Positions 13,621 through 51,959 of a stretch of DNA of 64,000 nucleotides are shown in pieces; within the stretch, counting starts at the first letter, position 1; each line of letters begins with the position of its first letter. A program made the translations under genes and the position numbers. Source of the DNA: Polytrichum commune (taxonomy: Eukaryota; Streptophyta; Polytrichopsida; Polytrichales; Polytrichaceae). The stretch spans positions 45,937,169-46,001,168 of the forward strand of contig OX485806.1 in the NCBI GenBank assembly GCA_950295325.1, given 5' to 3'. The notes under the pieces were generated by a model. The model did no database searches and was not told the DNA's origin. It worked only from the letters and a program-made list of their open reading frames with translations.

Positions 13621-13711
13621 TTGGGAATGGTCTGGGGCTGCTTATATATAAGTTCAAGTTTTTATATCTTCTTGAATGTATTACGATGCTGATGACTTCG
13701 CTTTGATGCAG

Positions 13712-14537
13712 TCCCCCTTACGGATTCGGAGTTGAAGTTGAAGCTTCACGACCTTGCGATTAAGGAGAGCGTTCCAACAGCCTCTCATCTAGAGAAGCTA
13801 AAATGGCAACCAAAACAGAAGGGTCGTCTCTTCATCCCCCTCTGCCGTATGATGCCTCTTCCTGTGGTGAGACCGTTTCTCAAGAACGACGTATCCCAAC
13901 TTGCAACACATTTTATGACCGATGGCTACATGGAGGGGTGTGGTTTTTTTTATGTGGCTTTGGAGGATCACCATGGGCATACCAATGACGTGACCCCGAA
14001 TGTGCTGGCTAAGTGGTCATCGGAGTGGAAGGAGGTGAATGCTGAGTTTGAGAAGAAACTTATTGCCGATGATGATTTAAAGATTTTTTCTAACAAGATG
14101 TTCATGGTTTGGGATGGTAACCATCGGCTGCAGGCATGGATGCCTATCATTGAGCAATTTCATACTCATGATATGAATTGGCATTTCTGTGTTGAGGGTG
14201 TAATCCTTGACCCAAGGGGAGACGTTCCATCTGTGATAGCCGCTCTGCACGAAGTGAATTGGTAAGATCCTAATCCTTGCCGGGAGTGTTTGAATTTATT
14301 GTTTGAATTTTATGCATCTTCTTAATGTAAAATTTTGGATTTGCAGGAAGAACCAAAAATCTCACGTCACAACGAACCTAGTTCACAAGTTGTTTCGCAT
14401 CCAGAATCTTGCTCCACAACCACTGTCGTACTTTGAGGGTTTGGTATCTCCAACTGTTTTGGAGGCTGCAAGGAAGAAACAGGCTGGAAAACATCGGACT
14501 TGGTTCACCCTCACCGTTGAAGGTCTCACTGTGGTTC
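13712..14537 (+). pseudogene. Outer ParB-methyltransferase gene, ParB-like exons
   Basis: Two exons, 13712-14261 (acceptor ATGCAG, donor GTAAGA) and 14347-14537 (acceptor TTGCAG), encode the N-terminal half of the fusion. Residues IPLCRMMPLPVVRPFLKND, followed about 75 residues later by FMVWDGNHRLQAW, match the ParB/sulfiredoxin-like fold, in which D/G-G-x-H-R binds nucleotide or metal. The second exon (KLFRIQNLAPQPLSYFEGLVSP) is homologous to 22009-21814 of the inner copy. The exon is interrupted at 14537 by the 16-kb inner element; the last 10 bp (14528-14537) are the target duplication, and the exon resumes at 30671. ParB domains of this kind fused to amino-methyltransferases are common in phages. 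Confidence 0.85.
14528..14537. repeat. Left target site duplication of inner MULE
   Basis: ACTGTGGTTC here matches ACTGCGGTTC at 30671-30680 in 9 of 10 positions. It flanks the terminal inverted repeats exactly. A 9-11 bp duplication is characteristic of the Mutator superfamily. Removing the inner element and one duplication restores the reading frame and the splice donor of the outer gene. Confidence 0.9.
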
Positions 14538-14577
14538 GGGAAAAGCTATTTTGCGAGCGGTGAGCGGTAAGCGGTAA
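14538..14577 (+). repeat. Left TIR of inner MULE
   Basis: The 40-bp end starts GGGAAAAGCTATTTTGCGAG and continues with three heptamer-like units (GAGCGGT GAGCGGT AAGCGGT). It matches the reverse complement of 30631-30670 at about 35 of 40 positions. A conserved CCTATGACCGCGG lies 50-60 bp further in. Related ends are at 59918 (GGGAAAAGCTATTT identical) and, on minus, at 35032. The heptamer repeats are plausible transposase contact sites. Confidence 0.9.
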
Positions 14578-14734
14578 ATTTTCTAGAATATTGAAATTTT
14601 GTGTGGTGAAACATGCCCTATGACCGCGGTGTAGAGCTAACTTTTGAAATATTTATTGACAAATTTATTGACAAAAAGAACCTATAACCGTGGTTGAGGA
14701 ACCTATGATGTATTTGCTTGCACCTTCTCTTATA

Positions 14735-15500
14735 AGGTTTGTAGGTTGGGAATGGATCCCGGATGGTTACAGGTTGTCATTTGAGGTGGACTAAGTCCCA
14801 CTTGGAGAAGGCCTCGGATCCGAGGCCTCATGGCTGCGGTATCATTTCAGATTGGGTATAAGGTTTGTAGATTGGGAATGGGTCTCGATGGTTACAGGTT
14901 GTCATTTGAAGTGGATGAAGTCCCAGTGGGAGAAGGCCTCGGACCCGAGGCCTCATGGCTTGAGCCCCTAAATTCTGATTGTGTTTAAAGTTGGTGGTTT
15001 CTGGGTGGGTCTCGGCATTTCAAGTGGAGGGGCTACTTTGCAGAAGGCCTCGGATCCGAGGTTTGTTTTGCCTTGGGGTTTGCTGTTTGATTTGAGGTCA
15101 AGTTTATGGTTTCAGATTGAATGTAGGCATGCCATGTTTGAGTTATATGTTTAGCTACATTCAACCTGACTCCATAAATTTGAAATCGAATCATTGGTTT
15201 CAATTTGGGTCTCGACATGCCCAATGGCTTAGATTTCATGTTCGGTCTCGGCATGGCCAATTTGGACAAGGCCTAGGGGTTTTATGTTTAGGGTGAATTA
15301 AAGTTTATGGTTTCCGGTTGAATATGGGCATGCCATGTTTGGGTTTCATGCTTAGCTACATTCAACCTGACTCCATAAATTTGACATCAAATCATTGGTT
15401 TAAGGTTGAGTCTCGGCATGCCAAGTGGTTCAAATTTCATGTGGGAGTGGCCACTTTGGATATGGCCTCGGATTTCTTGGGGTTTGATGTTTGATTTGAA
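14735..15500 (+). repeat. Subterminal tandem repeats with GGCCTCGGATCCGAGGCC palindromes
   Basis: Units of about 124 bp (TTGTAG.TTGGGAATGG, GGTTACAGGTTGTCATTTGA, AGTCCCA, GAAGGCCTCGG) repeat at about 14737 and 14861, with a weaker one from about 14985. Each includes a palindrome: AGGCCTCGGATCCGAGGCCT at 14809-14828 (perfect, 20 bp), the same with ACC at the centre at 14934-14953, and a half-eroded one at 15045-15064. A second unit type of about 196 bp (GGGCATGCCATGTTTG.., TACATTCAACCTGACTCC) repeats at about 15105 and 15302, with GTCTCGGCATGCC motifs. All share the CTCGG-NN-CCGAG or CTCGG half site found in the intron array of the same element. Confidence 0.85.
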
Positions 15501-17454
15501 CAAAAAACATAGGATGATGTCCGTATTTTATGCACAAGCCTTTTTTGGGTTCTAACATTCTTCTTCCATTCTATCTTCTAATTTTCTTATTCTTCCAGTC
15601 TATCTTCTTATTTTTTGTAATTCTAAAAAACGTATTGATATTCTATACTTATCATCTTTAATTTTTTGGTTTAGTTTTCCTTAGTCTTTGTTTCATGTTT
15701 TGATCTATATGTTTACAACTACATTTCTTTATGTTTTTTGGGTTTTGTTTTGAATTTTGTTACATGGATGATGCTATGGTGGATAATGAGGTAGTTTACC
15801 TCTATGCCTTATTGAATAATAGAGTGCAAGGAGGGTTTAGGGTAAGAGTGTAAGAAGGCATTACAAAATATAATTCACTGTCTAAGGAAAACCATGAAGA
15901 TTACCGCACTAAACAGACAATTAATAATCAAATGCAAAAATATATTATTATGCAAGCAATAAGACACAAAATTCTACCTAAGACATATAATCGAAATCAC
16001 AATTATCAGATAATGCTACAGAGACTTTAGAATCTGTACTATCTGCATCTGAAGAGCCTTCATCCTCAGACTCAACAACTTCTAAATCAACATACTCTAT
16101 GCCGCTTAGCATCAACTCCTTAGGTCTAAATGTACGATATGAACCTTCCGCTAATTCATTGGCAACGTCATTTGCGTATGAAGGGAGCCGCCATGACTTT
16201 GGAGGGCTTGGATAGAACTTAGGGTCACAAAAAAAAGGGCGGTGACTAGGGTATCTCAAATTACCGCTTCTGCAAATGCAAATGGCAACATGGTCATAAA
16301 ACCGCCTCATATGAAAGAAAATAAGAAAATATATCACTAGTAGTAGAAATAGTAGCTATACTCACTTACTAAACCTTGATTTCTTCACGATTTTCTGAAC
16401 AACAATGATTTCGCTATGTGGATCCTCTGACATGACAACGTCTCTTGATTTCACTTCTATGGCCGAAGCATTTCGAATTAGAGGAGCGATCAAGGCTTCA
16501 AAAATTGCCTTGTCATCCTCTAATGCCGCAATGTGACGGTTCACATTGCGGCACGCATGAATAGAAACACCTGCAAAATAAAAAAACAATGAAGTTCAGT
16601 TCTCAAACAACATAAAAATTAATTAACATGAAATGATCAACGGTTATTTACTTAAACATGAAGATATGTTCAACGTACCCGTAGCTGTAGAGCAGTCTAG
16701 AACAATATCCCCGGGTGAAGAAGATGCCTGAATGAGCATCTGTATAAGGGCGAGGGATTTTTCGCGAGGACCACGCCAAGGGGTGGATCCATCCATTAAC
16801 TGATCCTCCCTTGACACCAAGTTCTGGAGGATGTCATCCCGTGCCACATCAATCCCGTGACGGTCTAGTGCAGGGATGTGTTGAAAGCAAAATCTGGAAG
16901 CACGCACCTCCGGAATGCTCCTAACAACTAAAGTTATTCCAAACCTCATGGTCTGCAGATTACAAAAACAGTTAATTACTTTACTTACGAAATAAGATAA
17001 AAATCATTAAGCACATTCTAGTAAATGATATGGAAGATTAGTTTGACAAGATTAATAACATAAGATACAGCTATCAATAAAATTAGCAATAAGTCATATC
17101 ATAAAATAAACTCACAGTCAAGACTGGATTAATTGGGGACGTCAGGTGAAGCTTGTTCATCCCCCACCACTCCTTGCGAACAGCAAATCCATACGTGGAA
17201 CAGTACCCAAGAATGATTGACTTTGTAGACATTCGAAAAGGATGGAACAAAATTATAGCCCCATCGTCTTGAAGGTGATGGTCTGCGAAATCAAAGATTG
17301 TTTGAAACCAATCCTCAGGTTCTATGTTCCAGGCGGGAATAAACGAAGGTGGATTCGAAATTCCTGGAACAGGAAGGCCCTCTGGAAGATCTGTAAGAAT
17401 CAAGTCCACACAGGGCACTTCCACAACAGATCCCTTGTAGCGTCGGCCTTTGTC

Positions 17455-18223
17455 ACTTGTACGAAAACATAATCTCGCGGTTCGGGGTGCCAAACCGGTT
17501 CGCGGTTCGAGGTACACATTTTTTGAACGACTTGGTTCGGGAAATGACCGAGAGGTTTCGAATCGATCACCGGAAGACCACCCCTTATCACCCCCAAACA
17601 AACGGACAAACGGAGAGGGTTAACGGTATTTTGGTAAGTATCCTACGCAAGACGGTCCTAGACTCAAAGCGCGATTGGGATACGAAACTAACGGCGGCAC
17701 TTGGGCATATCGCACAACCTATAAGGTCACCACGCACGCGACTCCATTTTCATTGGTTTACGGGTTAGAGGCTACTCTTCCAATCGAATACGAAGTCGAA
17801 TCACTTCGAGTTGCCGTGGATACGCGCCTCACTTACGAAAAATCTTTGAGGAGTCGACTTACGGACTTGGAGGCGCTCGACGAGCGAAGGCGAATGGCGG
17901 CCCAACACATCGAGGCGATTCAACGCCGACGGAAGCGCATCTTCGACAAACGAAACAAAAAACGGGCACTCCAACCGGGTATGATGGTCATGATCCAAGA
18001 TGCAAGGAAACTCGAATTTCCCGCAAAGTTTGATGCGGTATGGCTAGGCCCTTACCTTGTAAACGAGGTGTTTCCAAAAAATTCACTTCAATTGGAAACT
18101 TTAAATGGACAACTCTTTCCTACGCGGACTTCGGGAAGTCGTTGTAAGCAGTACCTAGCGTGAATTCGGCATTTACCTTCGAAGCAAAAGATTTTGGATC
18201 CACCCCCCGATGGTCGCCAATTA
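17455..18223 (+). pseudogene. Ty3/gypsy integrase C-terminal fragment inside the methyltransferase gene
   Basis: The plus strand carries the integrase core from ENIISRFGVPNRFAV through HHRKTTPYHPQTNGQTERVNG, which includes the catalytic Glu in QTERVN, then YGLEATLPIEYEV, a basic stretch and a C-terminal beta-barrel-like part (QPGMMVMIQDARKLEFPAKFDAVWLGPY). A frameshift near 17690-17760 breaks it. It is followed by its 3' LTR at 18224. No RT, gag or 5' LTR lies to its left: the sequence changes directly into the methyltransferase exon at about 17455. A deletion therefore removed the element's 5' part together with part of the host gene. Confidence 0.88.
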
Positions 18224-19775
18224 TGTGAGCCCAAAATGGTGCCCACATGTGGTGATTAACTCTTCGGGACCAATTTTAGTTTGACTTTGAGGTGTTATGA
18301 TTATTTACAAAACATAAAAAGAGTGAAGTGTGGTGTGGATTTAAGTTTAGGCATTAGAATGTGTGGTGTGGTTATTCCAAGGTTTGAATTCAATAAGAGT
18401 ATGCCTTGATATTGTGAGTAGGGGGTAAGGTGAAGCAAGGTGAGCTCCGCGGGTTAAATGCCCACTTTTGGATCCACTTTGTTAGTTTAGGAAGAAGGAA
18501 GCTTGGTGGAAGGGGATTAGTCCTTACTTTAGAGGTGAAGGTTAAAGGATTGTGATTGGAGGTGCTAATCCTCTCACCCTATCCTCACCTCCCTCTCTCC
18601 CTCTCTCCCTCTCTACTACTTAAGGTGGTTTCTCTCTCATTTTCTTCTCTCTTCATCAAGCGCTCTCAAGGGAGCAAGTTCTTAAGAGCTTGAGCCACGT
18701 GTGTAGGTTATTAGTTTTAGTGAATTTAATTAGTTAAGCTCTCTCCCTCATTGTCTCTCAAGGGTGTGAGCTCTTAGAGCTTGAGACAAGGTGGGTGAAG
18801 TAAGTAGCTCTTAGAGTAGTTGTGTGTTAGATTAGTTTAGTTCATTAGTGGTTTAGTTAGCTCATTTAGCCAAAGTGCAAAGAAGAAAGGGATTAGTGGA
18901 TGCTTGATTAGCACCTAAGGTGGCGTCATTTAAGTGAGCCAGCTAGTTAAACCTGGTTGCTACATACAAGCTGTTGCCGAGCCACAAGGGTCAGCTGGTT
19001 AAGCCGGTTGCTACATACAAGCTGTTGCCGAGCCACAAGGGTCAGCTGGTTAAGCCGGTTGCTACATACAAACTCCTGCTGAGCCTACTGGTCAGCTGGT
19101 TAAGCCAGTTGCTACATACAAGTTGTTGCCGAGCCACAAGGGTCAGCTGGTTAAGCCGGTTGCTACATACAACTCTGCTGCCGAGCCAAATCTTGGATTA
19201 AGCCGGTCTAAGCCTTGTTAGGCCTTCACTTAACGAGTTAATAAATATAAACCTTAGTCGCCTCCCCACAAATTAACCTTGAACCACAATAGACTATTTT
19301 AGAATATATTAAGACTTAGGTAAGTATTGGATTTATTAGGCTAGGTAGGGCATGTGTGACTTTTAAATGTATTTGGTACTTGAACCATTGATAAAAGTGT
19401 TTTTCAACACTTGAACCTATTGGTCAAAATAAATCACTTGGATTACTAATGAAGAAGGTGGAGGACATCCGCGGTGGCGAGACAAAGGAGGTTAGGCCAA
19501 GGGAGAAAATGGAGGACTCTAGTGACGGAGGGGATAATCAAAAGCCAAAGGAGAATATCTTTGAGAGCTTGTGTTGCCAAGGCCGTTGGTTGGACCCTTG
19601 AGAAGGCCAATTCGGCTACAAGTCAAGAGGCTACCATTAATAAATGAAGTGATTCAAAATAACATGAATGCCTTGGGATGTGAAGTGAGCATTTTCAATA
19701 CACAAAACAATACATGTGATTCTCAACACCATCACCCGGACTAGGACGCTTAAGGGTGGTGGGTTTGGCCTCACA
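18224..19775 (+). repeat. 3' LTR of TGTGAG...CTCACA gypsy family
   Basis: A 1,552-bp unit starts TGTGAGCCCAAA right after the integrase end and ends GGTTTGGCCTCACA. The ends are TG...CA with a 6-bp inverted match. It contains a CT-rich track followed by a possible TATA (about 18600-18640) and a tandem array at about 18935-19185. Relatives on the minus strand are at 39139-40701 and 49689-50977, sharing the start and the CACCCGGA-TA-GACGC-AAGGGTGG segment near the end. At its right end the methyltransferase coding sequence resumes at once (GACAC / 19776). Confidence 0.88.
18935..19185 (+). repeat. 51-bp tandem repeat within the LTR
   Basis: About 4.5 units of 51 bp, each with GGTCAGCTGGTTAAGCCGGT, TGCTACATACAAGCT and GTTGCCGAGCCACAA. 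Because 51 is divisible by three, an open frame crosses it with a 17-residue repeat, but there is no sign of a gene. It is a minisatellite inside LTR sequence. Confidence 0.9.
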
Positions 19776-22700
19776 CCGTGTCGCCACCAAGGACTTGCTC
19801 TAGTGAGAAGTTTTTAATCCACTCCCCAACTTGGCCATCATTCTCCTCACCCGATGTGAAAACAGGGATTCCTTGGCTTAACTGCTCATAGGAGGAATCG
19901 TGTTTGGTTCCTCTAGACTGAATTGGAGCATGAGAACCAGAGTCATATGTAGGACTAGGCGCATGTGGGCTCTTACATTCTGGCTCTGGAGGGGGGTTCA
20001 TCTTCTTCTTCCCCCTCTTGTTAGTCTTTTCCAGAGAGTTGTGGAGTTTTGCCATCTCTTTCTGGGCCGCTTTCTCCTCAGCTTCCTTCACCTTAAGCGC
20101 TTTCTTCCTATCTTCTTCTAGACGTCGCGAGAGGGCCTTTGCCCTCTCGTGCTCGTCTTCGATGCCCTGTAAATCAACCATCTCAACACCAGACTCTCCA
20201 ACTGCCTCCCTTGACTTCCTAAGTTCATTTTCGAAGGAAGGAGTGAAACTAGGAGCACAGTCGAGGTACCATCCACCTCCTGTAAGATGTGAGGTTGACC
20301 ACGTCCGCTGTTGATTTGCTGAGAACATGCACGTTGAGTTCGACCTGTCAAGCCATGCAGAAAGAAATATGGGGAGATCTTCTTTTGTTATTGCTCCTTT
20401 TGCAAGGAGCTCGTACTTGAAATATCTGCAGGCAAGAAACAAGTCATCATTACATACATTGCAATCGAAATACCTGTGATTTGGAAAACCAAATCAGTAT
20501 GCCAAATATAATAACTGCAGTAGTTAAAGGAGAACCAACCGAAAGAGTACCCTTCGAACAATTAAGTCAGTTCCGTTGAAGCCCACAAATTTGATAGTTT
20601 TGTTAAAAGCCTCTTGACCTCTGAAGAAGGTGGGGAACGCATTGTCCCATAATTTCATTCTACAGTCCTCGATGTATGCAGCCAAGGTCAAAGGCTCGCT
20701 GGGTATTTCAAAGTTGATTGCTAGTCTGTCTTGGCGCAAAGTGTCTTCAAATATAATGGAAGCCTGATCGGATATCTGTAGAAAAATAGTGAGCAAGGCC
20801 GACAACAAGGATGAGAACAAAATTGAGCCATGTATGGAAATTAGAGTAAGAAAGACCGAGAAGAAGACCAAGAGAAAGACCGAATTAATGTAAAAGCTCA
20901 AATCAGGGAAACAGATCTAAAGAGTATATAAGGGGTTATGTACTCACTCCTGCCCAAAAACATGCCTTGGCCAAGAATGCATGCAATTTCTCCTCGTTGG
21001 TGGGCTTGGTTGGGAGTTTGCGTGCCTCACGTGTTGATGCAGAGGAATTGAAATATTCCAACCATTTGATTTTTGAAGCGGGTGATGCTTTTGCAGTAGC
21101 GATCAACTGCAATTTCTCTAAGTTGAGCTCCGGTGTAATTGAGTTAAGAGTGTAGTGACGCGCAATCTGTGAAACATAGAGTAATATATTAGACTCAAGG
21201 AGTTCATTGAATTAATTGTAGAGTGAAAAACGGGCCTTAAAATAGTGGACATACCTCTCCAAGCCAACCCTCTGTCAACTCTGGGTTTGCCACACAAACT
21301 AGTTTTGACATTTTTTTATGAAGTGCCTCGGCTCTCTTTGAAGCAGCGACCTCTCCATCCGTTTGTTCAACAAGTTGACGAACACCCTCATCTGCAGCAA
21401 GTCCCAGTTCGTGCTGCAAAGGGATTACATTAGTTAGTTTGTCATGAAGAAGATGGATTAGGAAAGGCGCATACATATGAAATATCGATTGCCAGACATA
21501 GTGTAGAACCTATGTCTCGGTCCCAAGAATGAACTGTTGAATTCTAGCCAAAATAAAAGACAACACAGGAGCCGACTAGCTTAGTCTTGAACCAAATCTC
21601 AGAACCCAAGCTTCGGACAAAAAAGAAGCTAAACTCAAGTGATAAGTTAGCCAACAGTGGTTGTCAGGGTAGTTATTCTGTTATGTCAGCAAAGTCATAT
21701 AGACAAAGAAATATAGACAAAGAATAGAGCAGCAACATGCTTAATGTGAAATAAAATTAAAGAAAAAAAACGAGGGAATAAATCATTCAGAGTGAGTACT
21801 ATAGAGATTATACCTGGAAGATGAAGTTCGTAAAAACATGTAGATTTAATGAATACCACGTCTTCTTAGCATTTTGAGATTTCTTGCACCTTTTAATGTT
21901 AGCTGGAGTCAATATCTCTTGGTACTGTTCGAGCGGCATAAGTCCATACTTCTGCACCCTAAATAGAGTGTGAATTGTGTTGGTCTTGACGTGAAAGTCT
22001 TCAGTATGTCTACAAGTAACAATCATAGAGTGAAGATAGGCAAATTAAAATATATGTATATTTAAAGTACTCTACATATATGAAAATATTAAGTAATGAA
22101 AACTTACTTGTTGATGTTAGGCATAACTTGCATAACAACACCAGTTTTACCCTTCGTGTCAAGGAGGATGCTATCCACCGAAAAATGCCAGGCCTCTTCT
22201 GTTTTGTGAAGTCTTTGAATATGATTGAGCCAAGCCTGCCGCCTATGGTTCCCGTCACAAACAAAGAACATCAAGTTCTTAAAACTGGCTAACTCCGGAA
22301 CGGATAGAAGAAAGGAGTTGAATTCTTCATTTTTGGCACTCCAAATAGGACCCCACGATGCCTTATGCGCTTTAGTCACCTCATGTGTTTTGCCTTCTTC
22401 ATCCGTTATAGTGACATAAAATACTGAGGCACCCTCTCTATACCCATGGACAAACTCCTGCTCCAATTTAGCAAGATCACTTGAGAGAGTTGGCCTCACC
22501 ATAGGCATGGCCAACATTTTGCACAAGGGAATATGGAACCTTGAGGAACTCAGGGGTTCGACTCTCAGTGGAGAAATCGTGGCAACGGAGTTAAGTTTGT
22601 GTCGGGTCCTGATATCATCTTCATCACCTTCATATGGATCTCTATCTCCAAGCCCCTCTTCATCCTCATCCTGCCCCTCTTCGGAATTGTCCACAGAAAC

Positions 22701-22913
22701 CTGAGAAACACCAGGAACAACATCCTTTGCGTTGTTCTCTACCTGCAGGAGACGGCAGGCTCGATACATTCTATGATCAAACCAGTTATACAGTGTATAA
22801 CAACATTTCAATAAAATTCAGGCAGTCATTGCTAAACAAACGCAAAATGTATACCAAGACACACATATAATTTCAAAACAACCTTAGGATACTAACCAAT
22901 AGGCCCTCAATGT

Positions 22914-24275
22914 AAGTATGTCGGCACCGAGACAGACCACATCAAATCAATTCAGACCCACCCCGTAAGTATCTCGGGACCGAGACATCCAATTAGTTTC
23001 CAAGCAACCTTCTTCAAACAACATTTTGACCTTAATCACCTAGCAAGAATCATCCACACTAAAATGAATTATGACTAATTCAGACCAGTCAAGACTAATT
23101 CAGACAACTGCAGTGCATTCGTCATTCGAAACTAAACTGATTTCAGTGCTCTTTATAACCTATCCTATCAGAAACTAATTCTGAAATTAAACCCTCCTTT
23201 TAGGTGTCTCGGGACCGAGACACACAATAAGTTCCAAAGCAGCCTCTTGAAACAACATTTTGACCCTAATCACCTAGCCAGAAACATCCACACTAAAATC
23301 AATTATCACTAATTAAGACCACTCAAGAGTAATTCAGACAACTGCAGTGCATGAGGCATTCGAAACTAAACTGATTTCAGTGCTCTCAATAACCTATCCT
23401 ATCATATACTAATTCTGAAATCAGAGCCTCCCTGTAAGTGTCTCGGGACCGAGACACACAATAAGTTTCAAAGCAGCCTCTAAAAACAACAGTTTGACCC
23501 TAATCCCTTAGCCAGAATAATCCACACTAAAATCAATTATGACTCATTCAGACTAGTGAAGAGTAATTCACACAACTGTAGTGCTTGATGCATTCGAAAC
23601 TAAAGTCATTTCAGTTCTTTGAATTACCTATCAAATCCCAAACTAATTCTGAAATCAGACCCTCCCTATAAACTGATTTCAGTGCTCTTAATAACCTATC
23701 CTATCAGAAACTAATTCTGAACAAAAACCCTCCCTATAAGTGTCTCGGGACCGAGACACATAATAAGTTTCAAGCAGCCTCTTGAAACAACATTTTGATC
23801 CTAATCACCTAGCCAGAAACATCCACACTAAAATCAATTATGACTAATTCAGACCAGTCAAGAGTAATTCAGACAACTTCAGTGCATTCGGCATTCGATA
23901 CTAAATTCACTTCAGTTCTTGGAATTACCTATCATATCCCAAACTAAATCTGAAAGCAGACCCTCCCTGAGAGTATCTCGGGACCGAGACACACAATAAT
24001 TTTCAAAACAGCCTCTTCAAACAACAGTTTGACCCTAATCCCTTAGCCAGAATCATCCAAACTAAACTCAATTATAACCTATTCAGACCACTTCAGACTA
24101 ATTCAGACCACATCAATGCTTGCGGCAATCCTGACAGCGTGAAATCCACATACTTCCTACTCAATCCCTAAAACCCAATACCCTAATAAAACCTAATACC
24201 CCCAATAAGACTACCATTGCAAGCATCCCTCAATATAGCGAACATTGCCTACAAGTATGTCTCGGTCCCGAGACT
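22914..24275. repeat. Intronic array of TGTCTCGG-NN-CCGAGACA near-palindromes
   Basis: Units of about 233 bp (spacings about 233, 234, 302, 233 and 284 bp) each contain the 18-bp motif TGTCTCGGGACCGAGACA or a one-base variant: 22970-22987, 23205-23222, 23439-23456, 23741-23758, 23974-23991, and 24258-24275 with TC at the centre. A degenerate seventh lies at 22914-22934 and another at about 21503. Unit flanks (CCTCCCTATAAG before; CACAATAAGTTTCAAAGCAGCCTC after) also repeat but have diverged more than the motif itself. The array sits in the intron between exons 24688-24560 and 22742-22108 of the ParB-methyltransferase gene. Confidence 0.9.
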
Positions 24276-25359
24276 TCAAGAACGACTAAATCGCCCTCAC
24301 CATCAACATAAGGCAGAATTGACATGGATTCCGCAAATCTCCCTCTCGGCACCCATATGCATAAACAAGCTCAGAAAACAAAACAAACCAGCACTGATGG
24401 ACTCTTTGGGTTGGTCCTTTATCGTCCATACAATGGCTAGTGAGCCTTACAATCCAGGTAATTTTGGGTCACACCTTTCATCTTCAAATCCTGCACGAGA
24501 AAACAGATTCAAGGATTGCACGAATGATCCACATTAGAATTCGGTGTGGGCAAGCCTACCTCTTCCCCGAAGTGCCTCTCCTCATTATCCATGCTGCCTT
24601 CACAAAGATCTACAACATCAGCGTCGCCATCGAATTCTCCTATGCTTAACTCAGCAACCTCAGCGTCCCGATCGAAATCTCCTATGCTCTGTTAAGTGGA
24701 TATATCATGTGCTCCTTAGCTATGAAGTTGGCCTCATAAACTGTTGGCATTGGAAATAAACATTACCCTTGACCCAAAACCCTAAAATTCACCAATTGAG
24801 AACAGTCTTCACAAACCTGCTCCTCACTATGAACTGATGTTGAGGCACTCGAGGCTGCACCAGGTTGAAGCTGTGTCTACGTCACTCCCTGTCCCAGATG
24901 CCCAAACGTAATCCAAGTTACATCCTATCACCAAAAATATAAAAACCAACATAAAGGGTAGCTATTGGGTCTCAACTGTTCTAATTATCCTTGAGAGTGG
25001 TTCACATTACGTTTTTAAAGAAAACAATATCATGAGGATTTTTGATAAACAACACCTCACTGCCCCCTTTGTCTTCTGGGTTGTCTTCCTCCGTTACTGG
25101 AAATAAAACGATGGGAGCTACCGCTTCAACATCAAACGTCTTTTCCCCTTTGGAACCTCTACTTGTACCCTTAGAAGAAGTAACCCCTCTTCTACCCATT
25201 GTTGTCCGCAAGTTGTACGGCGTCCCTAAGCTTTCTCATGATTCTAACCTTTGCCTTCTCTCAATTCGCCTCTGTTTCTCACTATTCCTCCTTCCTTCTC
25301 GTTCTGCTCTTGCTCTCGACCTAGTGTTCATCTCTAACAAACATCTGAAGCAAACAGAT

Positions 25360-25705
25360 CTTATATATCATTTTCAAGTCTGTCAGAATTAACATCTATG
25401 CGCCATCGTTATGTTCACATTTTCTTGTATTTAGATAGTTAATCTGCAGTTACTTAAATTGATCCTTTGTTAATCCACACAACATTAATACACTACAAAA
25501 GGCGGCGCTAAATCCTTTTCTACATAATCGTATCCTTCCATGTCAGATAATTCGTGGTGATAAAGGGATGACTACTATTGCAGTACATTCTATTCATACA
25601 TGAAACAGGTTGTCCAGAATTTACATAAATAACTATTGACTATTAATTGATCTATCAGGTTATCAAATATTCGGGCATTGCTGTCTACCCTAGGTGTATA
25701 TAATA
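25360..25705. promoter_or_regulatory. Divergent promoter region of the inner MULE
   Basis: A TATA-like ATATATAAGATC reads leftwards at about 25361-25373, about 30 bp before an ATG (about 25335) opening a basic peptide (MNTRSRARAERE) of the methyltransferase gene. A TATA-like GTATATAATACC reads rightwards at about 25696-25707, about 50 bp before the ATG at 25757. The two lie roughly 330 bp apart with no coding sequence between. The promoter assignment rests only on these boxes and on gene orientation. Confidence 0.5.
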
Positions 25706-25756
25706 CCTGATTACTTGTACCCATTCTTTCATCTCATCTCATCATATTCTTCTCCA

Positions 25757-26185
25757 ATGGGTACTGACTCAAGTCTCCCGAGCCTTGCTCCTTTAGGTGC
25801 TCCTAGTGCATCACAAATCCACACCACATCGTCGATTGATGGTTTTCCAGACGTCAACAACATGAAGATTCTAAACCCACCTTACTGCTCAGTAACTCCG
25901 GCGGTCGCAGTTCAGAGTCCACATCCCCGGACTCCATCTTTGCAGACGGATGTTGCAACGCTGATAGAGGACAAGTCTACTTTACAGACTCATGCCTATT
26001 CTAGAGTAGGGGTTATTAAACCGGGCACTTACTCTAGATCTCTATTAAGGAGTGCCCCACGTCCCCAAGGTCAGGGAATCGGTTGCGCAGGATGCACTGC
26101 AGTTCATAGTTTAGGGATTGACCATTGTCATAAACATGACGGTGACAAAAATGGCAAAGGGCCCCATAAGCGTCTTCGTCGTTAA
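25757..26185 (+). CDS. Small Cys/His protein or first exon of the inner transposase
   Basis: A 142-codon frame starts MGTDSSLPSLAPLGAP, 50 bp after a TATA-like box, and ends TAA at 26185. It is Ser/Thr/Pro-rich, with a C-terminal CAGCTAVHSLGIDHCHKHDG cluster that could bind one zinc ion, then a basic tail GPHKRLRR like a nuclear localisation signal. It resembles no family I know. It may be a separate small protein of the element or a 5' exon upstream of the transposase start at 26573, with the AT-rich stretch 26186-26572 as intron. I saw no counterpart upstream of the outer transposase. Confidence 0.5.
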   Translation: MGTDSSLPSLAPLGAPSASQIHTTSSIDGFPDVNNMKILNPPYCSVTPAVAVQSPHPRTPSLQTDVATLIEDKSTLQTHAYSRVGVIKPGTYSRSLLRSAPRPQGQGIGCAGCTAVHSLGIDHCHKHDGDKNGKGPHKRLRR

Positions 26186-26572
26186 TCACAATGTAGCATT
26201 CTAATATTATTGCCGAGCTACTATCATGCTCTCCACATTATTCTTGGCGGCCGTCATTCTTATGACTTTATTTGCCAATATATATTATAATCATCAATGT
26301 TTAGAATGTATGCCTGTTCTTGGATTATACTATTTGATATGGATGCCTTTTATAGGATTCTACTATTCGTCTTCTTACCTATCTCGGACTTGCATTCAAA
26401 ATTGGGTTTTCAGCCGTCTTTCATCTTTCTCTGCATGACTCTCTATTAACTTCTGAAATTCCGCTTGCTGGTACATAAATTACCAGTTTGCACAGTAATT
26501 TCTTTCCTGTTATATATTCTCGCCATTTCAATGTTCAGAATACTTGTTTTGTTCAGAGTTCACTGGTTTACT

Positions 26573-29500
26573 ATGGCCCTGCTTCGTGCTGAACCTCATT
26601 CTGTTCCGGTCCTCTTTCCATTAGGTGAAGACGGTCATGCTATAGTCACTTGTGCAACATTGAATTTGAGGTTTCAGTATCGTGAGGTCACTATCTTTGT
26701 CGAAGAAGAAGTTTTTGACGATCATACCGGTCTAGTTTCACATGCAATTCGTCAATCTAGGGTAGAGAATGACTTCGGTGCGTTCTGGTTGCTGATGCCT
26801 GGAAAATATCGTGTATATGGAGTCTCAGAGTCTATGTTAGAGTGTTCGACTGAACTTCTAACACCTAAGGAGTCGTCCACTGTTAGCGTTGAGAGACCGG
26901 TGCTGGCTAGGGTCAAAATTGAACCCGGTCTAAATACAATATATGAGTTGAGTGATGATTCCGACGGCGATGTTGAATTCCTAAAATCAGAGAGGAAAGT
27001 CCCAGCTTCGCTCTCTCCACAAGTAGTTCGCAAGGAAACAACTCTTCCTGTTAGTCCGTATCGTAATCCTGTTCAGGCCAATGTTGTGACAAGTCATGTT
27101 GTCAGTATCATTCATTCATTGATTCGCCTTGGAGCTCGTAAGCAGTCCAAAAGTGTGTTATCTCGTATTAACTTTGATGCGATCAGACTCTAGCAGGTTG
27201 AATACCTTCCCCCTCGTTACGATGGGGACGTTATCTTCAAGTTTCCACCTTTAGGTGACCATGGCCAGAATACAAAGGCCAAGCTGCTTCGTGGAATGGA
27301 TAGAAGGTACAATGGCCATGCTTGGTCTCGTACAATTACAACCAATATTCAGAATGATCTCAAGCTTTTGTTTCGTACATCTTCTTGTTTGGGGCACCTC
27401 CGTTGCGACAATCCTGCTTGTGAGTATCTTCAGCGAGACCACAGGACTTCCCAAGTGAATGAAACAGAGTGGGAAGGATTATCTGAGAAATTGTTTGAAG
27501 TAGGGTCCAAGCCTCCAACTGGTTCGACCGTTGTTTGCAAATCCTGTAACGTCCTTCCAACCTGCGTTGTTGTGTGCACTGCCAAGATCTAATATGTAAG
27601 TGGGACACCTCACATGACGAGGGCTTGTGTGCACTTGGGATCTCACGACCATCCCGTCAAGTCAGGTGATCATCGAGACTTCATCGATTTGACAGACAGC
27701 TTGATTGGGGATCAAGTCGAACGCACCCCATCAGCCACTCGCTCCGCTATTGTGCTTGAAACTACAAAGGAAGTACTGGGCCCACTCCTCCTTGCTAAAG
27801 AAGGCGAACCACAAAAGATATTGGAGTTGGACGAGCTGCAAGTTATTTTCGATCGGTGTAAGCACCTCACCTCGCCCAACATTTGTAACGCAGTCACCAC
27901 GTTCAGGACTATGCGTCGTTTTGGAGTCATGGACAGTATTACCAAGTTACGCGGTGCTAGCAATTGGAGGTTCGTGTAGCAGAATAGGTTTCCAGGGCAA
28001 GGAGCGGACATGGACAAGGTCTTTGTCTTCAAGATGTCTGAAGTTGGACCGGGCAGCGGAGTCGACCTGGTCAAACGAATGCAATCCGGTGGTGATCTGG
28101 AGAACTCTTGGATAATGTTTGACCATGTCAAACGGGTCAGGTCGTGGACGACAATGGCTTGCCATGTGTACGATTCCACATATTGCCGTGTCATGACCAT
28201 CGCAGTATGCGACATGCAGTCTGAAGATGTTGCAGCCCAGTCAGTCGTATGGAAGAACCTGAACGCTCTCATGGCTCAACATGGAGTGGACAAAGTCAAT
28301 TTTAAAGGTTTCATGGCCGACAGTGCCCAAGCGAACTGGAATGCTGTTCGAATCATATACGGAAGTGGAGATGCGTCTGAGAAGATGGTGGACAGAGAGA
28401 GGACTTGTGTTTTCCATTGGACGCAGTCCTTGGAGAAACATACCAAGGCCGATATCCGTCAAGACATGCAATATCAGCATCGAATACTATGCCAACAATA
28501 CAAGAATGCGAAATCGATGGCGGAGGCCGAGACAAAGTTTCTGGCAATTCGAGCATTGTGGATGTCATCCGGTGCAGCAATTGAACAAACTCTTTCTCGA
28601 CTGGAGCTCTGGCTGGCATTCTGGCATTTCCGTTACCGCCAATGGGGTGGATTTATGGAGTTGGTAAGTCTATACTTGCCAAACCTTTCCTGTATAGTTC
28701 ACTCTTATGGTTCAACTACATTGATTCCATCCTTATTCTAATTCGGACTGTATGGGCATTGCAGGATCTAAGTGAAGCTGAACTAGCGGAAATGCCATCT
28801 TGTAACCTTGCTGAATCTATCCATAACAAGTGGAAGCAACAATCTGGCGATCGAGGCAGCGACCTTTATGTGGCAACAGTCGACGACTTTGTGCGTGTTT
28901 TCATGCAGTGCTCAGCATATTCCCAATTCCTAAATGGAGACAACCCTGGAACTGGACCCTCGAAGGAGGAATTGAAGTTGAGGCGTGCTCAAAGGTCAGC
29001 CGCAAAAACAGGAATATCTAAACCTCTGCACGAGGCCATCTTGAAGATGCTTGGCGGTGACGAGTGGTGCACCAGGACTCCCCACCTCGAAGGGGAAGAG
29101 GTATTTGTTTCTCTGAAGCGTAAACCAGACATTGCTTTCGGTGACGAACGTGAATCCCACAGGCCAGACAAAATCAGTATATCCCGACCACGCGTCCAAA
29201 CCAGATCTACCCGACTTAACGATTCTCCTTCTCCTCTGACAATTCCAGATTCTCCCACAACTCCAGATGAAGAGCAGCCGCAACTTCCAACACACGACGC
29301 TCCGCAGCAGGTGGATCGGCACCACGTCACCGCGATTGAGGAGACATTATGCAACCCTGCCCAGTGGCACATCGCACGGCTTTCTAAGACATCTGCGAAG
29401 GCTTGCTTTGCTCTACAAGCAATCACCAAGAAGAAGTGCGTCGCTCGGATTGTACAAGACGGGAAGAGCACCGCTGCACCTACCTACTCGGGCCTCATGG

Positions 29501-30213
29501 ATAACTATCGGAAGAAGAGATTGGACCCTCAAGACTTATTTTTCTGCAATGACGACATTGAGAGATGCGTTAAGGGTACAAAAAGGAGATGGGTGGTCTC
29601 AGTCCCGAACGTTCCGGAGGTATGGCCGGTTAAGTTGGGGACCAACTTAACATGCAAAGAGATCCTCTCTTTAGAAAACGCAGGCTTTAGACTGCCCCAG
29701 CGGAAGGAGATGACACCTTCCAGAATTTTTCAGGACCACCCGTTACCTTTGGACTTGGCAAGCTACACGACACCTGCATATCCCGATGAGTTTCCCACCC
29801 GGCGTTCAGGGAAGTTGATTAGGCGCAACAAGAAGGCCCCGTCAACAAAACACGCCAATAATTGTGCCTCAGCCCTATCACTGAAAGCCAAAGTACACAA
29901 ATTGTGCATGCTTCCAGCCCCTGCCTTAGGATGCATCGTCTCGTTGGATTCCGGCACGCCCCCAAAGGTTCAGCAATACTACTTGACGATTTCGCAGTTG
30001 CCAGCATGCACTTGTCCTAACTTCAAGGAGATGGCGACTAAAGCAATTGGAAAAAGGGGTCAATGGGCCAACTGTAAGCATTTGTACTATTTGTTTACTG
30101 TAGTGTGTGGTTTGGACTCAGATTCAGATACGTTCATTCATGCAGCTAGTTTTAGCTTCAACGAAGTGAAGCGAGTTTTGGAGGCTGGTTTATTGAAGTA
30201 CCTTGACTCTTAG
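26573..30213 (+). pseudogene. MULE-like transposase with SWIM finger, inner copy
   Basis: Exon 1 (26573-28663) starts MALLRAEPHSVPVLFP. It carries an N-terminal domain shared with the outer copy, then Cys/His motifs (GHLRCDNPACEYL; VVCKSCNVLPTC; TRACVHLGSHDHPV) and the DDE core: CHVYDSTYC (Asp 1), GFMADSAQANWNAVR (Asp 2) and RTCVFHW (C..H pair typical of MULEs). Exon 2 (28765-30213, after a 101-bp GTAAGT...TTGCAG intron) is fully open. It ends with a SWIM-type finger, CTCPNFKEMATKAIG..WANCKH (CxCxnCxH), and runs to TAG 30213. The whole would be roughly 1,180 residues. Three in-frame stops in exon 1 (27192, 27591, 27978) replace Glu, Tyr and Gln positions of the relative, so it is inactive unless bypassed. 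Confidence 0.9.
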
Positions 30214-30630
30214 AGTTTTCTGTTTCTTTAAAGAAATATATGTATGCAAGATTTTTTATAATCATGATGTAGTGAGACTAAAAGGGCCACTACAAGACAT
30301 TTGACGCACCACATGTATTTCTCTTTTCCAAAGTTGCGTGACCTTTTTGGAGTACCACTAATTCTCCTTGTACTGAAACAGTACGTGTTTGACTTGAGAC
30401 AAACCCATATTTATTACTGATATTAGTTCCAAATGTTCAATTTAAGCCCCTACACCATATTTTTCACTGATACTATAACATTTTTTCCTATATCATAGCC
30501 CTTAATTGTCCACGGTCATAGGTCCCACTGTTCACTAAGTTTAGAAAAAAAATTACTTAAAATACATTTAGTCCACATATACCCTAAACTTACTACTTAA
30601 AATAACATTTTAATCAAAATATCGCGGAAG

Positions 30631-30670
30631 TTACCGCTCACCGCTCACCGCTCGCAAAATAACTTCGTCC
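30631..30670 (-). repeat. Right TIR of inner MULE
   Basis: Read on the minus strand from 30670 it begins GGACGAAGTTATTTTGCGAG and continues with GCGGTGAGCGGTGAGCGGTAA, matching the left end 14538-14577 at about 35 of 40 positions. Further in, at about 30510-30525, the subterminal CCTATGACCGTGG is the counterpart of CCTATGACCGCGG at the left end. Confidence 0.9.
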
Positions 30671-33600
30671 ACTGCGGTTCTTTACCAGGTAATTCAACCT
30701 CAAATGTTTTTTTTGTCATTTCATTTATGATCAAGAAATTCATTTAACTGATTCAAATGATTGTTTGATCTATAGCAAGAGATTGCAGAAGCTGCTCATG
30801 TTGCTGAAGACAAATACAAGATGAAGAACCCAGATTCTAGCACTTGGACAGGTCGTAATGCAGAGGAATGGGTTAGGAAAGCTGTGAAGAAGGTCGAGGA
30901 TAAGCTTGTCGCGGAGCTCAGGAAGCATTTGCCTGTTGCGGATCCCAAGCTAACTCCAGGTTTTCTTGAGGAGATAAAGGCTCACTATGAGAAATTCGAT
31001 GAACCTGAGATGCTTCAGGAGAAGATGTATATGCTGGCTACCTCTGCGATGCCTCCAAAGATGATGGTCAAGTGGCTCCAGAGGTGGAACTCCTCTGTGG
31101 CAATTCGGGATGCGCATCGCTTTCCCAAAACTGCCTTCGCCGACTCCAAGTTCCCGGAATGGCTGAATCGGGCAACATGGTGGGCGCAGGTTAGTATTCA
31201 TCTTAAATTTCATGTTGTCATTTCATTGTCCCCTAATGAGCTATGAAACTCTGGAATTAAGACAATATCTAATTTCTTAAAACTGTTTGTGTGCTTGGGA
31301 TCAGATTGCAGTGGAGGCTGAGGAGCTCTTCTCGGGTGTTCTCACAGATCTTGAGGAAGTTGTTGACTACAATCCCGTTGGCGAAGATCCTATCCTAACT
31401 ATCTTCGATTATGTGGAGGCTATGAGGTGTCAGCTCTGGGAGATTGCTTTCTTCGTTGAGTTGGGTGGAGATAACGGCGCTCACAAGAACAACCCCCCGG
31501 AGAAGCAACCTTTCTTCGGGCAAGCTGTCCGCAAGGTCCTTTACATGTATTTTCGATACGTTCTCCTACCCAGGAAGGCCATCTCTAAGGTTCCCCCTTT
31601 CTTCCCTAACTACCTGGATATCCAAAGTCTTGATTCCATGTTCACTCCTGCAATTGTAAAAACATGGGATCCAATTCATTTTCAGTAGTGCGGGTGGTAT
31701 TTGGACTGTCCGTTCAAGAAACCTCCTCCCTTTGACATCGCACTCAGGGACTCTATTCAACCTCTCTTACCTTCTCCCGCTACTTCAGTTCCACTCTCTC
31801 AGTCTCCTACACCCCCCAGGGTGGCTCCTCCAGAAGCAAGACCGTTAGTAAGGCGAGTAGGCCTCGGGGATCCAAGCGGAAGGCTGCTGAGTTAGTTGAG
31901 GACCCCATGGAGGAAGATATTCTTGTAACAGGTTGTGAGATCGGTGATCCACCTGCAAAACTTGCAGAGTCTTTCAGCTCCCATCCGCCGCGGGCACCTG
32001 CTCTAAAGCGTATTCGCCTTGGAGTTGCCGGTCAATCCAATCCCATCGGATTCGTCCCACCTGCTGTGAAGGCAATGTCTTCTTCCCAGGCATACAACTC
32101 CTCCTATGCTTCTTCTCGGGTTCTCGTACTTAATGACTCCTTCCACAGGATGTTGGATTTTAAGGCGAAGCATAACAAATTCCCTTCAACTTATGATGAC
32201 ATGGTTGCTTTTCTGAATGAGGTACATGTCTAACTTTATTCCCATTCAAATCAGCTAGCCTTCCTCTATTCACAAATGTTTTCTATACTTAATGCCATGG
32301 TTTTTTGGAAACTAATGTTGGTGCTTAATTCCCATTCAATTCAGCTATCAAGCCCCTATTCACCAACTCATTGGTTTTTTTTTTAAGGTTGGAGCATCCA
32401 GGGAATTCTTCTTCTCAGGCAAGGTGTTGCAGAAGGCTGCCGTGGACCTTGTTATTGCAGAGTACCCTGATGGTTTGCCTGTCCCAGGAGTATTCTGAAT
32501 TCCCCGGGCAAGTTCCAAATTGGAATAAGCAGGTTCAGAACTTTGTCAAGTTCACAATTGGCTTCTGTCAGGGCTATCTTCACGACGACGGTGCACTCCT
32601 CTTATTTTATCCTGACAGTGTGCAAATCAAGAAAGAGGTTCTAAGCTTTCTATACAACAACAATCTGGAGGTCAAGGAAGAATGGACCATTATTAATTCT
32701 CTCCACCTCACTCACCCTATGCATAACTCAAAGCGGGTAAGTAATTGTAATCATTTCCCACTCTTCAAGTTCTACCTCATTCATAATTTCAATCACATTA
32801 CTAACAATTCGAGGCCTATGTTTGATGTCCATACTTTGAAGTTCAAAGCAATCGTGTTGGTTCGATCTTTCCCCATACCTTTGGCTAGGCCACCCAAGGA
32901 ATTTGTCATTTGTTCTAGTGACGAATTTGAAGGTGTTGACCTTGCAAGTGATGACGTGCTTTTCAACATTGTCACCGCTGATACTGCACTCAAGCGCAAC
33001 GACGGTGCCACGTTCTAGAGGGGCCCTAAGGAGAAGGCAGTGTCCCTGCTCCAGCTTCTAATCAATGGCCTTAGCCCTCCGGGGGGGATTATTTGTGACC
33101 TCACTGCTGGAACTGGTATGAGTAATTTTTTCAACATTCTCATGTCTCTAGACTTAGGCATTCTACTCAATCACATTCTTCTAATTTATTTATTTTGCTC
33201 TTTGTAGGTGCCTCGATTCTTGCAGCACAATCCGCTAACAGAGCAATAGTGGCACTTGAGGGAGACAAGAAATTGTACGAAGAAATTTTTCACCCACTTC
33301 AGGTCGCCGCGTCGGAGTCTCAGGGGGTCGATCCAACCCACTATGTAGACCTTGACGACGACGACGATGTCCTCCCTCAACAAGATGCAGTTAATCTATG
33401 TGAGTAAGTCTTTTGTCATCTTAAACTTATTTTTTTTAAATGTTGCATTTAATTGGAAGGATTCTAACATTTGTAATTTGTCCTTTGTTGGTGCAGTGTG
33501 ATGGTTCAAGGCTGCGGCTCACCGACTAGTTCTAGCATGCAACTTCCTTGTTATGCAGAGGCTATGGCAGTAGCTTATGCCAAAGACTCCTCCCTTAGTT

Positions 33601-38497: not shown

Positions 38498-39138
38498 TGT
38501 CGCAACCCTTGCTAGCCCCTTTAACAATCTTACCAATTTTCATTTCTAGCAGAGGTTACAAGCGCTAATCCTTCGCATTCCACCATCCTAATGGTTAGCT
38601 CCTCTTACCCCGGACCTTATAGTTCATAAGAGGGAACCAACCCTCCTACTTTGCTTTTGGGACTCACCCCTTAATCGGTAACCAATTCTTAGATGTGACT
38701 TCCATCCATGGAAGTCCAATCTTATGTTGATCATCGCGTTGCCGGACCAACACTACAACAACCCGAACCATACTAGGCAACTATGGCCTCACATTGGGCC
38801 AATGCTCCTGGAGGCCTCACCCATATAAGCCTCTAGGATTCTACGCGGGGCCCCTACACCACCATCATGAATCTTTTTGTCTCTCTACCAAAAGTTGGGG
38901 CCAAGTAGACATTTTCCCTTAGCCGTTGGGCCTAGAAGCTTCCAGTAGCTTCAGACCATCATAACTTCCTTGTATGATGTCTAATGCTGATAAGCAATCA
39001 CTCCATCTTCATCTACGCTTCACGTAGATGCCGATGAACTTCTCACTTGCCCCATTCAGGCAAGTGTTGAGGAAATTATGCATGTTTGAACCTTGGTAGT
39101 CCTGGGAATCACTCCCAGGCACTGCTGTACCAGGGCGC
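38498..39138 (-). repeat. LTR B, 5' LTR of the reversed gypsy element, truncated
   Basis: It is homologous to LTR A over about 640 bp: the GCGACA end is at 38498, and conserved blocks include TTGGGGCCAAGTAGACATTTTC, ATCTACG..ACGTAGATG and the Met-tRNA site just outside. The outer part is missing. It breaks at 39138 inside the GC-rich palindrome of the family and joins directly to the other LTR family. It belongs to the gypsy internal region 38480-36061. Confidence 0.88.
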
Positions 39139-51427: not shown

Positions 51428-51955
51428 AGTATACATTTTTGTTTAGCCGTTGGGGCTAGAAACCCCCAACCACTTCAACCCCCATAACTTTGTCATATGA
51501 TATCTCCTACTATCAAACGACCATTTCATTGGCATCTCATCTTTGCGTAAATGCGGATGGATCTTTCATTTGCCCCATAGAGGCAAGTATTGAGGAAGTT
51601 ATGGTTGTTCAAACCTTGGTAGTCCCAAGCGCCACTCCTTAGTCATTGTTGTCCAAGGGCATTGTCCCTGGGCAACGTCCCACTCAATTTGCCATATCTC
51701 CTAGCTCACACCTCCAATTGAGCTGTTACTTGAGCATTTTGGAATTAGGGTGCTACAAGCTACTTACATTTATGGCGTTACCTTTGTGACTCCTAGTCTC
51801 CGTGGATGGGAGGCGTTCCCAACGTCCAAGGCCCTCACCCACACTAGAATCACTTGGGCCCTCTCAGCAATGGCGCCACGAGTCCCAAGTGTCATTCCGC
51901 GGTCCCCCTTATGCCCATAGTTTGTCAGGCACTCCTCATGGGGAGGTGTGCGACA
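51428..51955 (-). repeat. LTR D, TGTCGC family, truncated
   Basis: About 530 bp homologous to the distal half of LTRs A and C. It begins near TTTAGCCGTTGGGGCTAGAA and ends GGAGGTGTGCGACA at 51955. The family palindrome is eroded (GGGCATTGTCCCTGGGCAACG). The Met-tRNA-site half is missing. It abuts a copia integrase fragment at its right. Confidence 0.85.
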
Positions 51956-51959
51956 TGTG

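Follow-up and report, generated by a model that had tools for sequence, protein, structure and literature searches.

We analysed a 64,000-nucleotide stretch of the Polytrichum commune genome (assembly GCA_950295325.1, contig OX485806.1, positions 45,937,169 to 46,001,168 of the forward strand), hereafter the window. It carries three copies, A, B and C, of a large transposon resembling Mutator-like elements (MULEs). All three contain a spliced gene, here called the fusion gene, in which an exon with a DGNHR motif is joined to a class-beta amino-methyltransferase; A and B also contain a transposase gene. Further copies were read elsewhere in the same genome, and several carry arrays of lineage-specific palindromes next to or within the fusion gene.

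The inner element, B, spans 14538–30669 (16.1 kb) and is bounded by terminal inverted repeats (TIRs), detected by blast, and by a target-site duplication (TSD). The left TIR (14543–14580, plus strand) is 38 bp long, contains 7-bp GAGCGGT repeats, and matches the right TIR (30628–30665, minus strand) at 92%. Comparison of the flanks gives an 11-bp TSD, CACTGTGGTTC on the left (14527–14537) and CACTGCGGTTC on the right (30670–30680), equal at 10 of 11 positions. Joining the flanks at one TSD restores an uninterrupted exon, ...FTLTVEGLTVVLYQ, of the copy A fusion gene, open to its GT donor. Thus, the target of the B insertion was the second known exon of that gene.

Inside B, the transposase lies on the plus strand (26573–30213; exons 26573–28663 and 28765–30213) and the fusion gene on the minus strand (22769–15978). 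The fusion gene starts with an open exon containing DGNHR (22108–22769), which ends in a GT donor, has a provisional 5' start, and is 38% identical to its equivalent in copy A. Five middle exons (19776–22009; 22009–21814, 21413–21255, 21166–20948, 20775–20540 and 20425–19776), modelled with GT/AG splicing, have counterparts in copies A and C, and four methyltransferase exons follow (15978–17457; 17457–17116, 16952–16679, 16570–16366 and 16269–15978). Copy B is not intact: its transposase has three in-frame stops, and its fusion gene is interrupted by a gypsy-type retroelement fragment (approximately 17459–19775, plus strand), absent at the corresponding point of copy C, with integrase-like open reading frames (ORFs) within 17397–18163 by inspection.

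Copy A, the outer element, has its transposase on the minus strand (first exon 7496–9601, three in-frame stops) and its fusion gene on the plus strand (13711–33404), split by B. The first known exons, including DGNHR, precede the insertion (13711–14537); the remaining exons, including the methyltransferase, follow it (30681–33404) and contain stops and one frameshift. Of copy C, the window holds the left TIR (59918–59955, plus strand; 82% to the B TIR) and the linker and methyltransferase exons (60877–64000, minus strand). The gene runs on beyond the window end, where its DGNHR exon falls within the adjoining 1.9 kb. It is damaged by frameshifts and by two stops in the DGNHR exon. The linker exon of C ends in a GT donor and is spliced onward into the methyltransferase exon without a stop, indicating that the DGNHR and methyltransferase parts belong to one gene. 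A sequence-only reading of this DNA had described a 16-kb unit with TIRs and a TSD that holds a transposase and a multi-exon gene, the same pairing in the outer copy, and the methyltransferase gene in a third copy. Each of these descriptions is borne out, the boundaries being correct to about one base, and the third copy also has the linker exon and, beyond the window, the DGNHR exon.

Recurrence of the gene pair

A PF01555 search of the same genome gave five matches, three of them on small contigs, and identified two more copies, D1 (on C1, 15.2 kb) and D2 (on C4, 19.8 kb). D1 and D2 align in pieces at 83–98%, the five longest at 93–98%. By inspection, D1 is flanked by the TSD TCTGTTACCT, identical at 10 of 10 positions, and D2 by an 11-bp TSD (9/11); D1 has a 56-bp TIR at 79% and D2 a 36-bp TIR at 86%. 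In both copies the transposase and the fusion gene are again divergent, and a 577-aa open exon spans the middle and methyltransferase parts. Both are decayed. D1 has one stop each in the transposase and the DGNHR exon, a frame break, and DGNHP in place of DGNHR; in D2, a gypsy-type element splits the transposase and the DGNHR exon contains three stops. Small contigs C10 and C12 (G000; L001–L003) gave strong PF01555 matches (9.6e-26 to 7.3e-13) and are perhaps bacterial contamination.

Four additional places, E1, E2 with E2b, E3 and F1, were picked by the palindrome described below. E1 consists of a transposase tail, an array and a methyltransferase. In E2, the fusion gene and a neighbouring B-like transposase converge, an arrangement that probably arose through nesting, and E2b is probably the other end of the E2 fusion gene. 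F1 was read over 12 kb, and its methyltransferase end lies beyond that stretch. In B, D1 and D2, a single pair of TIRs encloses both genes, with the fusion gene on the strand opposite to the transposase; in A and F1, the two genes are neighbours. An array separates the divergent genes in all five of these copies.

Two side observations concern the coding content of the family. A B-like transposase at L037 1312–4513 (plus strand) is still open over two long exons, of 564 and 488 aa, that are 91–92% identical to B; its N-terminal part is interrupted and 76% identical to B. In the D lineage, a kinase-like reading frame lies between the array and the DGNHR exon. The F1 version (L046 1365–2870, plus strand) is open over 502 aa and scores 23.3 bits with PF07714 (above the cut-off of 23.1) and 29.2 bits with PF00069 (below 31.7). 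Similar pieces are seen by inspection in D1 (C1:9641001+17200-17760) and D2 (C4:44092001+24616-25239). Either the element has a third gene here, or the frame encodes the N-terminus of the fusion protein.

The elements are MULE-like, a label resting on TSD length, TIRs and a transposase motif order that we take to be that of MULEs. By inspection, this order is D, D, C-x-x-H (its C lost in D1), E and then CxC...CxH, the last being a C-terminal SWIM-like motif in B. Over 698 aa, the transposases of A and B share 53% identity (54% in another alignment, with D1 45% identical to B). The TSDs of B (11 bp), D1 (10 bp) and D2 (11 bp) fall within the 8–11 bp given for MULEs in the part of the literature used here (PMC6446971), and TIRs are present. 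Pfam profiles gave no MULE transposase match in any of the three transposases and a weak SWIM match (PF04434, E 0.063) in one; a model of the transposase core (pLDDT, the AlphaFold2 confidence score, 43.9) was too poor for fold comparison. The MULE assignment of the sequence-only reading stands on TSD length, TIRs and motif order. We considered whether the in-frame stops are recoded and rejected this: in the alignment, the stops of A and B lie opposite differing residues, so that decay is the preferred explanation. A scan of viral contigs with two transposase peptide patterns confirmed no relative.

Domains of the fusion gene and selection

The C-terminal part of the fusion gene is a class-beta amino-methyltransferase, as had been proposed. 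PF01555 matched all five copies searched at E ≤ 1, the best at 3.2e-9. It exceeded the cut-off of 26.7 bits in B (31.9 bits, 1.7e-7), D1 (30.6 bits) and D2 (32.2 bits); C, at 26.6 bits, is 0.1 bit under. The B sequence by itself matches PDB 5hfj at 5.5e-8, and a profile of the five copies matches it at 3.5e-9 and CcrM (6pbd) at 5.7e-4 over most of its length. Motif IV precedes X-I, the order that defines class beta. The canonical catalytic motif of N4/N6 amino-methyltransferases is (D/N/S)PP(Y/F/W). Among the seven copies read, motif IV is DLPE (B, E2b), DIPE (E1), DIPK (C), EYPD (A), DIPD (D2) and DIPY (D1), and only the last is near-canonical. In motif I, GTG is retained by A, D1 and D2 (DLFVGTG in D2); the other four, B, C, E1 and E2b, have ATG or STG. 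A search of phage records gave 342 matches to the methyltransferase, none reaching 60% identity, and no close phage relative was found among them. Of four phage records inspected, three are annotated and show the methylase as a separate gene; no methylase is annotated in the fourth. None of the four yielded a PF02195 match.

The N-terminal domain is less readily classified. DGNHR is kept in seven of eight copies read (A, B, C, D2, E2, E3 and F1), D1 being the exception. We take a motif of this type as the mark of a ParB-like domain, and the ParB label used here is motif-based. The sequence-only reading had called the domain ParB-like; the motif is conserved, but a profile search with PF02195 gave no match. 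The only NCBIfam hit was to an ArsR-type helix-turn-helix model (E 0.026, in two of five members), and PHROGs returned two unnamed families, each for one of five members (E 0.016 and 0.17). A DUF1015 match (E 0.22, one of six members) was not used as evidence. In the phage collection, the DGNHR exon had no match at 0.01.

To measure selection, we compared synonymous (dS) and nonsynonymous (dN) divergence. Between B and C, the DGNHR exon has dN 0.16 and dS 1.69, a ratio of 0.09 over 156 codons, and the methyltransferase has dN 0.18 and dS 1.58, a ratio of 0.11 over 219 codons. Both domains were thus under purifying selection, suggesting that the fusion gene was kept working along at least the B and C lineages. 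For the DGNHR exon, dN/dS is 0.18–0.28 among B, E2 and E3 and 0.29 between A and B, at a dS of 2.2; the A–D1 and B–D2 comparisons are saturated. In the B/C methyltransferase (e.g. window 16679–17457, minus strand), purifying selection is seen despite degenerate motifs IV and I, and it is possible, judging from these motifs, that this lineage encodes a pseudo-enzyme that acts as a reader.

Lineage-specific palindrome arrays

Between its divergent genes, B carries an array of 234-bp units (22918–24274), each with the palindrome GTGTCTCGG-GA-CCGAGACAC or a near match; seven sites have at most two mismatches. Three more sites with the same CTCGGnnCCGAG core lie near the left end of the element (14811–15060). 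The equivalent array of copy A (11356–13204) has 117/255-bp units and a different inverted repeat, with a 6-nt centre, GGTGCC-n6-GGCACC (six sites), extended in some units by outer CCCCGA/TCGGGG; its 37-nt hairpin has a z-score of -4.46. The arrays of D1 and D2 have units of about 104 bp with TGTTTGTGCGC-TG-GCGCACAAACA and variants. Palindrome sites also occur in introns of the fusion gene, as in copy C (62916 and 62979). A paired change distinguishes the palindromes of B and C: CTCGG/CCGAG versus TTCGG/CCGAA. Hairpin z-scores, for one example of each of three palindrome types, range from -4.1 to -4.9. We take the arms GTTTC...GAAAC of the copy C intron palindromes (window 62978–62995; L014 ~896–919), and the half-site TGTTTC...GAAACA in copy C, to resemble bacterial parS; the resemblance may be chance.

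Specificity was examined in 164 kb of sequence. The B/C pattern (at most two mismatches) matched 18 times, with ten matches in B, seven in or just 5' of the C gene and one elsewhere. All 13 matches of the D pattern (at most three mismatches) are in D1 and D2, and all six of the A pattern (at most one mismatch) are in A. The same 164 kb contain 24 tandem-repeat rows of period at least 40, each of which was compared with 200 shuffles, ungapped. In seven rows, a palindrome as good arose in at most one shuffle: two from the B main array, the B left subterminal sites, two from D1, one from D2, and one unassigned (L014 7487–7663). Two more rows of the B array (39 and 27 of 200) and a 45-bp array beside C (3 of 200) fell short of this threshold. 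In the unassigned row, the tandem repeat has a period of 98 bp and contains a perfect palindrome of 18 bp, TCGTAAGAATTCTTACGA (0 of 200 shuffles).

The B-lineage consensus is GTYTCGGnnCCGARAC. Across the 408-Mb genome, GTYTCGGNNCCGARAC occurs at 1,867 sites, compared with four for the reversed pattern and about three per strand predicted from composition. The D-lineage pattern TTGTGCGCNNGCGCACAA occurs at 37 sites in 11 places, and its reverse at none. The D-type places read are D1, D2, F1 and L043/L044 (about 3 kb). Among the matches listed, the B-type places outside those read include a cluster at C1:15.22 Mb and a lone site at C1:10.99 Mb. Four of the four places picked by the palindrome alone and read over 12–20 kb (E1, E2 with E2b, E3 and F1) carry fusion-gene coding sequence by the array. 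The arrays themselves are dissimilar: in blastn comparisons at 1e-3, those of B (234 bp), E1 (138 bp), E2 (159 bp) and E3 (244 bp) either do not match one another or have best matches of 26–33 bp that fall on the palindrome. Since the matches are confined to the palindrome, we conclude that it was kept while the surrounding array was replaced. We also asked whether the arms pair beyond the core, using 74 sites retrieved with the inner core alone and 2,000 shuffles. The first position outside the core pairs in 70 of the 74 (CG, TA and AT pairs) and the second in 69, each at 0 of 2,000 shuffles, which we read as support and not as a probability because sites within one array are related.

Other features of the window were few. 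Rfam and tRNA scans gave no matches, and diverged inverted or direct copies of another repeat, with short palindromes of its own, lie at 3155–3927, 38697–39204, 42571–43307, 51478–51956 and 56093–56780. Across the 408-Mb assembly there were 42 dirigent matches, 41 of them above the cut-off, against zero in 14 control genomes; dirigents being a mark of land plants, this agrees with the host.

Proposed roles of the fusion protein and the arrays

These elements share an anatomy that recurs across copies; both domains of the fusion gene show selection, and palindrome arrays specific to each lineage lie next to or in the gene. On balance, and with moderate confidence, we favour the view that they form a family of large (15–20 kb) MULE-like land-plant transposons whose fusion protein serves in self-recognition, probably against silencing, with a cis address of its own. 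By analogy with ParB on parS or VANC on its motif, the fusion protein would bind the palindrome of its own lineage. The arrays would gather many copies of the protein on the element, and the gathered protein would keep the shared promoter region active against host silencing, or otherwise regulate it. This effect would act in trans on all copies with the same address. From its motifs, the methyltransferase of the D lineage (DIPY in D1, DLFVGTG in D2) may write N6-methyladenine or N4-methylcytosine at the arrays, and that of the B/C lineage, with D(L/I)P(E/K) in motif IV and the first glycine of motif I lost, may have become mainly a reader. We offer more tentatively the further idea of a parS-like centre on a eukaryotic transposon, with a co-diverging ParB-like/methyltransferase reader, in which one lineage may still write a base mark and another is a pure anti-silencing reader. 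The sequence-only reading had already proposed an accessory or anti-silencing factor. Linkage in several copies and purifying selection support the accessory role, and the anti-silencing idea gains from the arrays, which that reading had not mentioned; the ParB-like domain gains nothing from the profiles.

Several observations weigh against self-recognition. No ParB family match was found in Pfam (0 of 5 and 0 of 6 members) or NCBIfam (five members), profiles of the DGNHR domain retrieved no ParB chain from the PDB, and an AlphaFold2 model of the DGNHR exon (mean pLDDT 40.8) was too poor for fold comparison. The B–C ratios were obtained at a dS near 1.6, close to saturation. The recent copies D1 and D2 (dS about 0.02) drift freely in the DGNHR exon, where their ratio is 1.09; for the 577-aa exon it is 0.52. 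Such values are to be expected while copies decay. The association of parts is also incomplete: E1 has no DGNHR exon in the 20 kb read, no transposase was found in the stretches read for C and E3 (20 kb for E3), and a fifth palindrome-picked place (L043/L044, about 3 kb read) is a transposase start (E 9e-5) with no fusion gene there. The three array rows of copy A were not significant (23 to 52 of 200 shuffles). In the arm-pairing test, the third position outside the core pairs in 57 of 74 sites, not above shuffles (311 of 2,000), and the sites within an array are not independent of one another.

The palindromes could also serve the transposase or a host factor. The arrays would then be binding sites or enhancers for the transposase or a host transcription factor, and the fusion protein would act elsewhere, for example by methylating newly replicated or excised DNA. 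In A, B, D1, D2 and F1, the arrays lie in the region that separates the divergent genes, which, like the three subterminal sites of B, fits this explanation, but sites also occur in fusion-gene introns, and the E3 array adjoins a fusion gene with no transposase in 20 kb; we consider it unlikely. Only a little more probable, and still doubtful, is that the fusion protein functions as an N6A/N4C methyltransferase and marks its own element, with the palindrome as methylation target. A protein that binds and modifies its own transposon has been suggested by the authors who described an Ectocarpus element (PMC12477816, in the part that concerns its accessory gene). The PF01555 matches in all five copies and the DIPY and DLFVGTG motifs of the D lineage are consistent with such an enzyme. 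However, the position that we take to hold the catalytic aromatic is E, K or D in six of seven copies (B, C, E1, E2b, A and D2) and Y in D1 alone, and this despite strong purifying selection on the B–C methyltransferase region.

The hairpin z-scores and the paired changes in the arms would also be expected if the palindromes worked as hairpins, in DNA or in RNA (as cruciforms, terminators or sources of small RNA), and not as protein sites. Dyads of 18–24 bp with a 2-nt centre, as in the B, C and D types, are to our understanding also typical of dimer-binding sites, and we regard hairpins as improbable. The fusion gene could finally be a passenger fragment without a role for the element, captured in the manner of Pack-MULEs, and MULEs often carry host fragments (PMC6446971, in part). 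This is very improbable. Three lineages (A, B/C and D) share the same divergent layout, the gene is multi-exon, and B–C dN/dS ratios near 0.1 on both domains contradict capture and fit a working accessory gene better.

Self-recognition by the fusion protein can be compared with several known systems. In bacterial ParB-parS partition, a ParB protein acts with palindromic parS sites. A protein with a DGNHR-like motif beside palindromic sites is reminiscent of this; here, in contrast, there is no ParB profile match, the setting is a eukaryotic transposon, the sites are lineage-specific, and no ParA was seen among the ORFs read. The PF01555 enzymes (5hfj and CcrM, 6pbd) share the class-beta motif order, whereas the present domain has DxPx instead of DPPY in six of seven copies and is fused and spliced in a plant transposon. 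Cytosine methyltransferase genes are described in retrotransposons of dinoflagellates and charophytes (PMC5890265, in part). Both cases place a DNA methyltransferase in a mobile element, but those are C5 cytosine enzymes and ours is an amino-methyltransferase fold in a DNA transposon.

The sequence-only reading had treated the gene pairing as new, and in this it was anticipated. In the brown alga Ectocarpus, the accessory gene of the giant transposon Sola1-1_Ec32 combines a ParB-like domain with an N4/N6 methyltransferase and lies opposite the transposase (PMC12477816). The likeness is by description: that element belongs to the Sola-1 superfamily and a brown alga, whereas the elements here are MULE-like, from a land plant, with 10–11-bp TSDs. 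Palindromic arrays, present here, do not appear in its description in the part of that paper used here (PMC12477816). Our searches covered open papers, and only one search paired ParB with a plant group; within that scope, we found no land-plant MULE-like ParB-methyltransferase case and no associated palindromic arrays. In Arabidopsis, VANC proteins of VANDAL elements have target motifs that are short, differ between lineages and lie in tandem repeats, in introns and in upstream parts of the element that encodes them (PMC5735166, in part). Compared by motif anatomy, both systems have a MULE-encoded factor, and in both the non-coding parts of the element carry motif arrays specific to the lineage; the VANC motif YAGTATTAY (PMC5735166) is arrayed in one orientation, whereas the motif here is a palindrome. 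By this analogy, VANC is the strongest parallel to the fusion gene and its arrays. We know of no methyltransferase or DGNHR domain in VANC.

For the Ectocarpus gene, binding to its own element was suggested in the part of the work drawn on here; the palindrome described in this study supplies a specific candidate for such a target, counted across the genome and against a control. The lineage pairs of palindrome and fusion gene would allow a swap test. If self-recognition is correct, a modification enzyme would have been turned into a self-recognition, anti-silencing factor, and its palindromic address would be usable for aiming proteins at chosen loci. MULE-like elements would then possess a second, seemingly independent system of self-recognition through motif arrays, derived from a bacterial-type DNA-modification protein.

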